Shown: positions 18,150-19,157 of the stretch, piece by piece | Position numbering within the stretch: the stretch's first letter is position 1 | Layout: every line of letters starts with the position of its first letter | Notes under the pieces: generated by a model | Seen by the model: the letters and a program-made list of their open reading frames with translations, nothing else | The model's database searches: none | Told to the model about the DNA's origin: nothing | Position numbers and translations under genes: made by a program | Origin: an uncultured Actinomycetes bacterium | GTDB taxonomy: Bacteria; Actinomycetota; Actinomycetes; Nanopelagicales; Nanopelagicaceae | Reading direction: 5' to 3' | Length of the DNA: 64,000 nt | Assembly (NCBI GenBank): GCA_903822425.1 | Contig: CAIJOY010000029.1 | Span: forward strand, 1-64,000

Positions 18150-19157
18150 TTATCTCTTTACCTTGTAACCCACGGGACATTTGGGAGTATTACCAGATAC
18201 TCGCTTCACTAGTTTTCCTTTATGGCAACTCATAGTTGTTTTCTTCATGGGAGCCTTGTCGGTAACAGACTTTTTAGGTAAGGAATTGGGAACAGAGTCC
18301 TTTGCCAATGCTATAAATTGGGAATATCTTCCAACCTTTACAAATTGAGCTAGAAAATAATCCGAGTCTGTTTTCATTCCGCAAAACTGATTTGGATTGT
18401 AAAGCAAACTGCTCATACCTATGAGTAATTCCTTTTTATCGAGAACTGCAGTTACAGGTCCGCCACTATCACCAAGACAACTTGATGCAATTTTCGAACG
18501 CACCACGGCTCCGGTTTTTGAATCATCTATAGGTGGGCTGGCCGTTCCCTCATAACTTTGCACGTTACTTGGGGCATCTGAATTCGTATCTGAGATTGGC
18601 CCGTATCCGTAGACTCTCAAAGCGCTGGCATTTTTGATTATGCTTTCTATTTGACCAGAATTGGCGATCGATAGGTATGAAGCTAGCGGGTGATCTGACT
18701 TAAGTATCAAATATGCAATATCTTCAGAATTTGGATTTGGCAAATGACCATCAATATATTGTGGATTTAGATTGATAGATAAAGGGTGTTCACCATTAGG
18801 AATTGAGGTATTGCCAGTGCTGTTTATAAATATTTCATCTACTGTAAAAATATCGTTGTTAACTTCAGAATAGAAGCAATGGGCTGCCGTTAAAACAACA
18901 CGAGCGCTAATCTGAACCCCAGTGCATCTAGCGCTGATCGAAGTAGTAGTCGTTGTCACTGTTGTCACAGAGTCAACGGTAGAATCTGATGTCTCAACAA
19001 TTTCACTATGTAAGTCAATTCTTACCGTAAATTTATTGCTAACATCAGATTGACCGTTTTCAATTGCTTGAGCTGGTAAAGACATGGACAACAAAACAAG
19101 AACGGGTAGCGCTACAAAAAAGAGACCTTTTAGCGAGCTAATTTCGCGTCGGGGCAT
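18150..19157 (-). CDS. Secreted trypsin-like serine protease with Cys/Lys-rich C-terminal tail
   Basis: The 335 residues start with a signal peptide (basic MPRREISSLK, hydrophobic core, cleavage near PAQA-IENGQ). The chymotrypsin-fold triad is complete: His93 in LTAAHCF, Asp146 in NSEDIAYL, Ser231 in CLGDSGGP. A Thr-rich insert lies at about 62-73. The last 30 residues form a separate basic module with Cys311 and Cys327 (MSCHKGKLVKRV ... PKCPVGYKVKR), probably an envelope-binding or sorting tail. An AGGAT site precedes the ATG. A hairpin with GGGAC/GTCCC arms (19173-19191) lies in the leader. Substrate unknown. Confidence 0.88.
   Translation of the reverse strand: MPRREISSLKGLFFVALPVLVLLSMSLPAQAIENGQSDVSNKFTVRIDLHSEIVETSDSTVDSVTTVTTTTTSISARCTGVQISARVVLTAAHCFYSEVNNDIFTVDEIFINSTGNTSIPNGEHPLSINLNPQYIDGHLPNPNSEDIAYLILKSDHPLASYLSIANSGQIESIIKNASALRVYGYGPISDTNSDAPSNVQSYEGTASPPIDDSKTGAVVRSKIASSCLGDSGGPVTAVLDKKELLIGMSSLLYNPNQFCGMKTDSDYFLAQFVKVGRYSQFIALAKDSVPNSLPKKSVTDKAPMKKTTMSCHKGKLVKRVSGNTPKCPVGYKVKR

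Follow-up and report, generated by a model that had tools for sequence, protein, structure and literature searches.

The gene at 18150..19157 on the minus strand of the window (the whole stretch of 64,000 nucleotides that was analysed) encodes a secreted trypsin-family protease of 335 amino acids (stop codon counted in the coordinates; PF00089, E 5.6e-13), which ends in a short basic tail with two cysteines, and the question raised by this locus is what such a tail is and what it does on an exported enzyme. The signal peptide (residues 1-31, 19065..19157, minus strand) ends, as read from the sequence, in AQA followed by IENG. It was missed by a strict prediction script and called by a lenient one, and is plain despite the strict miss. 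The Pfam trypsin match covers residues 71-256 (18390..18947, minus strand), and His93, Asp146 and Ser231, which by analogy with other trypsins we take to be the catalytic triad, lie in TAAHC, EDIA and GDSGGP, respectively. These are the residues that a functional protease should have. A signal peptidase cut after AQA would leave IENG (19053-19064) as the N-terminus of the protease, and two relatives have VENG or IENG at the corresponding place; the trypsin N-terminus may be generated by signal peptidase, without a propeptide.

Behind the protease domain follow a linker (about residues 285-304, 18246..18305), the tail (residues 307-335, 18153..18239) and the stop codon (18150-18152), all on the minus strand. 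The tail is recognised as a module by its 15 copies in the genome, the consensus of C-terminal tails, a predicted beta-hairpin and the charge. Its 29 residues contain eight Lys/Arg and no Asp/Glu, and Cys311, Cys327, the many basic residues and the end PKCPVGYKVKR are all present as an earlier note on this DNA had described them. The Pfam match stops at residue 256, before the tail begins, which bears out the earlier description of the tail as a unit separate from the protease. No Pfam or NCBIfam match was found inside the last 29 residues of the protein. Two further trypsin-like loci of the same genome lack a tail match, and the tail is therefore not part of every trypsin.

When the window tail alone was used as query, it was found at 15 places in the window genome, the other 14 copies matching with E values of 1e-9 to 0.0023, and a profile built from the 15 tails (alignment A1) recovered the same 15 matches at E 1e-16 to 2.4e-14. 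The occurrence of the tail in this genome is far beyond chance. Thirteen of the 15 tail-bearing reading frames are complete and have a signal peptide by eye, the other two being broken at contig ends. A loose DNA pattern was uninformative in the same genome (174 and 294 matches, versus 338 and 167 in the reversed control).

Throughout the order, 204 of 296 genomes have a profile match, with 1 to 23 copies each; in the best-quality genomes the figures are 85 of 108 with and 23 of 108 without a match. With 92 of 296 genomes lacking a match, many of them incomplete, the module is not essential. Thirteen single-contig genomes were listed with a match, six of them with 16-23 copies (G126, G127, G128, G135, G136 and G036) and seven with only one or two (G066, G129, G238 and G255-G258). 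This split in copy number hints at two surface lifestyles or at a partner gene; draft genomes also show intermediate counts, e.g. eight in G273 and nine in G102.

Outside the order the tail is rare. In an even sample of the phylum it was found in four of 396 genomes including the window genome, i.e. in three of 395 others, none of which belongs to the window class and one of which is a weak match (E 9e-4). The class of one of these matches has the tail in seven of 296 genomes. This second class is probably Acidimicrobiia, an assignment that relies on the resemblance, by eye, of protein L236 to proteins of contigs so labelled (L131, L132). Scanning species genomes with a degenerate DNA pattern gave at least 119 stretches, and 115 of the 119 listed have a profile match; the four listed without one include L118 (labelled Falkowbacteria) and L161 (Agaribacillus). 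The other listed records are labelled as actinobacterial, including IMCC26103, IMCC19121 and Candidatus Planktophila lacus, a member of the Nanopelagicaceae, which are also taken to be the family of the window, with the exception of L141. Labels of the Bifidobacterium breve type on metagenome-assembled genomes (MAGs) named after lakes were taken to be wrong. L141 bears the label Candidatus Methylopumilus, yet a tailed trypsin is encoded on this contig, which may be due to mis-binning, gene transfer being the other explanation.

Among all loci examined we counted 221 distinct modules. The 205 carriers with at least 90 residues ahead of the module fall into 35 N-terminal clusters without any blastp link between them at E 1e-5; 121 of the 205 are in a single cluster, 21 of the 35 clusters consist of single proteins and seven of the 35 representatives are truncated at the start. 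In detail, ten representatives had Pfam matches above the curated cut-off (LRR_5, Laminin_G_3, RCC1, neocarzinostatin, subtilase, Peripla_BP_6 twice, an Ig-type domain, SGNH and Kelch), three had weaker matches only and 22 had none at E 0.01. The trypsin match of the representative of that cluster falls slightly short of the cut-off (19.6 of 20.6), while those of L110 and the window protein exceed it. The kinds of carrier include trypsin, subtilase, LRR, lectin-like, RCC1 and kelch proteins, among others. The linkers before the tail are rich in A, K, P, T and S, and their type varies among carriers.

Most carriers have a signal peptide. The strict script called a signal peptide in 142 of 158 complete distinct carriers versus 90 of 406 tail-less reading frames of at least 200 aa; the lenient script called 153 of the 158, its control also being high (272 of 509). 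Of the five carriers failing the lenient script, four seem to begin within the carrier domain, like broken reading frames, and the fifth, L204, has a signal peptide on visual inspection. Two carriers of one cluster, L074 and L147, are lipoprotein-like. The suspicion of the earlier note, that similar tails occur on other secreted proteins, has thus held, and the profile search did not give the outcome that would have refuted it, namely a tail confined to the protease and its direct orthologs.

The largest group, cluster 0 (121 members in the examined set, e.g. L096:10215-11831), is an exported family of about 550 aa whose genes often form tandem clusters. Its representative has no Pfam match. 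A structural model of a cluster 0 carrier (pLDDT 84.7, pTM 0.83) found no convincing match in the PDB, the best (E 6.4e-4, TM 0.14) not being a real one.

The consensus of the module, of about 28 residues, reads T-I-T-C-V-K-G-K-x-x-K-K-V-T-A-x-x-P-K-C-P-x-G-Y-K-K-K. Both cysteines are present in 215 of 216 C-terminal tails; the one tail without the first cysteine was left out, and in 210 of the remaining 215 the spacing is 16. The mean net charge of these 215 tails is +8.0 and 206 of them have no acidic residue. In 209 aligned tails both cysteines, the proline following the second one and the glycine are invariant, while K at +7 reaches 94% and the tyrosine 92%. Codon positions 1, 2 and 3 of the tail diverge by 0.20, 0.20 and 0.62 at an amino-acid identity of 68.5%, and the far lower divergence of the first two positions points to purifying selection on the tail as protein. 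In L237, a kelch-type protein from a locus of 72% GC, the copy contains nine Arg but not a single Lys, so that the charge was kept despite the loss of lysine. This argument rests on one protein only, and within the 215 tails (GC 39-58%) no trend of Lys/Arg with GC was seen (r 0.05).

AlphaFold2 predicts the last 35 residues of the window protein (301-335) as a beta-hairpin with strands at 7-13 and 16-22 (pLDDT 86, pTM 0.45), and in a model of a full carrier the tail is again a hairpin (pLDDT 92-95). A profile search of solved structures gave no relative (best E 0.19), and the best Foldseek match of the tail model was the NIP1 elicitor of Rhynchosporium (PDB 1kg1; E 1.2, Z 2.4), for which there is no evidence of a relation. 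The two cysteines of the module probably form a disulfide, which is inferred, no bond having been observed. A Thioredoxin_4 (DsbA-like) protein is encoded in all 14 genomes tested and VKOR in none of the 14, and the re-oxidant of DsbA is thus unidentified.

That a mobile element or gene conversion had recently spread the DNA of the tail was considered and rejected, because the mean DNA identity of 55 tails is the same within and between genomes (0.64-0.67). Tails of different carrier clusters are 0.638 identical within a genome versus 0.653 between genomes. There are exceptions, namely a pair in neighbouring genes at 0.936, which on the evidence of this identity is likely to reflect one recent exchange, and a near-copy inside a gene cluster at 0.923. 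Taken as a whole, the tail is a real, shared module.

As to its position, 211 of the 221 copies reach the stop codon or finish one residue short of it. Among the unusual copies, L103 and L240 have three each with 7 to 28 residues beyond the last, L243, a protein of the second class, has up to five with a period of about 28, and L234, a small protein, carries its only copy immediately behind the signal peptide. Of the copies in L243, three have good scores, a fourth is weak (E 0.06-0.09) and the fifth is insufficient alone (E 12-19); the module region of this five-copy protein gave only DUF7871 at E 0.042, with 14.4 bits versus a cut-off of 29.5.

The module was also found on viral contigs. Two pattern scans of IMG/VR yielded 33 distinct loci with 27 distinct bodies, and all 33 match the tail profile. 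In detail, 26 belong to one family of about 570 aa with a signal peptide, which directly follows the gene for the terminase large subunit in all three contigs tested (L246:1530-3248, L270:6557-8296 and L252:9225-10940). The other seven resemble the host trypsins of the window protease cluster; a Pfam trypsin domain was confirmed for L256 only, a contig which also encodes a CHAP-domain protein. One of them, L277, shares 66% identity with L060 and 65% with L125, both from bacterial assemblies, and as L060 sits on a contig of 3.9 kb, some of the trypsin-type carriers in MAGs may be phage DNA. That the hosts of these phages are Nanopelagicales is presumed from the tail alone. A tblastn search of INPHARED phages and PLSDB plasmids with one 35-aa tail gave no match at E 1, which is weak evidence with so short a query. 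Relatives of the 570-aa carrier were not found in INPHARED either, though there are many in IMG/VR.

The 570-aa protein has 141 relatives in the search, of which 80 were retained; 26 of the 80 match to the last residue of the query and 54 stop short. The C-termini of 66 of the 80 comprised 12 with and 54 without the tail (the other 14 match the full query), and the phage protein hence exists in both forms. A host relative at 30-41% identity was found in three of 201 genomes and is inferred from its composition to be S-layer-like. Four host proteins (L355-L357 and L363, 611-689 aa) were seen to share with the phage protein a C-terminal helix-like stretch of 34 residues (NADVLKSIVALIASINKQI...), which is strong in four of 296 genomes with one further weak match. 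Mutual exclusion between the tail and this S-layer-like helix was considered; the helix is present in only five of 296 genomes, all of them with few tails (1-5), and this number is too small to support a conclusion. Downstream of the tail bearer a second long phage protein of 810-832 aa with a hydrophobic N-terminus was noticed (L246:3366-5795, L270:9432-11927), for which only sub-threshold Pfam matches were obtained.

What the tail does can so far only be inferred. We consider it reasonably probable, though by no means settled, that it is a small autonomous cationic hairpin appended to unrelated exported proteins for their non-covalent retention at the surface, both the binding and the ligand being inferences. 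Modules of this kind are known from Gram-positive bacteria, where GW, LysM and choline-binding repeats as well as Excalibur bind the cell wall non-covalently. Like these, the tail is a small repeatable unit that secreted proteins combine with various catalytic domains; unlike them, it conserves just one pair of cysteines over its length of about 28 residues and matches no Pfam or NCBIfam model above cut-off. The mechanism proposed here, secretion followed by holding on wall polymers, resembles that of Lactobacillus surface proteins and S-layer proteins, in which a larger domain does the binding. The former reassociate with the wall electrostatically and the latter are bound via secondary wall polymers (PMC3610365). 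Of the traits of a surface-binding module, export of the carriers, attachment to many unrelated domains and tandem repeats are met, whereas surface binding itself is inferred. Tandem copies, the copy after a signal peptide and the all-arginine copy agree with a binding repeat that depends on its charge. Several observations count against this reading: the 211 copies are held to the end of their proteins more tightly than a binding domain free to sit anywhere would require, on the lipoprotein-like L074 and L147, already held by lipid, a tail for retention only would be redundant, 92 genomes of the order have no match, and the absence of VKOR leaves no identified oxidant for the disulfide.

The strict end position is what would be expected if the tail were instead a sorting signal, which an unknown enzyme recognises and cuts in order to join the protein to the envelope. 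Such a signal would also account for one tag on many unrelated proteins per genome, which is the feature that the tail shares with LPXTG, GlyGly-CTERM and MYXO-CTERM, and for single-contig genomes with either many or one to two copies, as would result from the presence or absence of a partner gene, drafts again being intermediate. The LPXTG signal consists of a motif followed by a hydrophobic segment (PMC3610365) and the MYXO-CTERM tag of a motif, a transmembrane helix and a basic end (PMC11980579). The tail has no such hydrophobic part: the maximal 17-residue hydropathy inside the module is 1.16 in the 215 tails, and only two of them have a stretch of at least 1.6 in the last 80 residues. An LPXTG-like motif is absent from the last 80 residues of all 215, as the earlier note had already seen for the window protein, and sortase (PF04203) was detected in none of 14 genomes tested, with three of 14 control genomes being positive. 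Seven of the 215 contain the letters PEP within their last 80 residues, with no helix following in the module, and the NCBIfam CTERM models matched neither the window protein nor ten further carriers. Above all, tandem internal copies and a copy behind a signal peptide could not serve as a cleaved C-terminal signal. A tag of the sortase or CTERM type is thus disfavoured by motif, hydrophobicity, absent sortase and internal copies, and we regard a sorting signal as unlikely. The earlier note had left open whether the tail is a sorting or a surface-binding tag; the tandem copies and the copy behind a signal peptide favour binding, which remains an inference, and speak against sorting.

A main rival is a module that grips anionic targets outside the cell, such as algal polysaccharide, extracellular DNA or other cells, and not its own envelope. 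The strong positive charge and the presence on already tethered, lipoprotein-like carriers would suit this, and lectin-like, LRR and protease domains may target outside substrates. Varied proteins of the host together with exported proteins of phages would, however, fit a single common docking site better, which is an inference; we hold outward binding to be improbable. Still more doubtful, and in our view hardly to be expected, is that the hairpin merely protects or stabilises the C-terminus or aids folding or export without any ligand. A very small, confidently predicted fold at a nearly always C-terminal position would be compatible with such a cap, but tandem arrays would be unexpected, the pattern is conserved over unrelated domains with different linkers and the charge was kept in the sole all-arginine copy.

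Nanopelagicales of freshwater append the tail to many unrelated exported proteins. If surface retention is correct, these would be exported, lose their signal peptide and have the cysteine pair of the module oxidised. The module would then bind an anionic component of the envelope, possibly a wall glycopolymer, peptidoglycan or a membrane lipid, and the protease and other carriers would be kept near the cell surface. A plausible, inferred benefit is that a retained protease would keep its products near a cell that lives freely in dilute water. Phages, presumably of the same bacteria, use the module on proteins with signal peptides.

Small units for non-covalent surface binding are not new as such, and what is added here is a family matching no curated model above cut-off. 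In the titles and beginnings of abstracts that were searched there is no description of the tail, and term searches of PMC11039613, PMC10202952, PMC6802176 and PMC5301498 gave no passage on it; most subscription journals are outside this coverage, so that a prior mention is possible. Within the same partial coverage, no account was found of how Nanopelagicales or freshwater Actinobacteria hold their surface proteins. It is conceivable, and proposed here only tentatively, that the most abundant Actinobacteria of freshwater have an as yet undescribed docking system, in which the tail, a cationic hairpin of 28 residues, would place up to 23 different exported proteins of a genome on one surface site, and that their phages export a tailed trypsin and a tailed relative of the S-layer-like host protein in order to occupy or remodel that surface during infection, e.g. 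by excluding rival phages. The profile of the tail provides an immediate list of candidate surface proteins of these bacteria, comprising proteases, lectin-like and LRR proteins and the family of about 550 aa, and it also flags phage proteins that may target the host surface.
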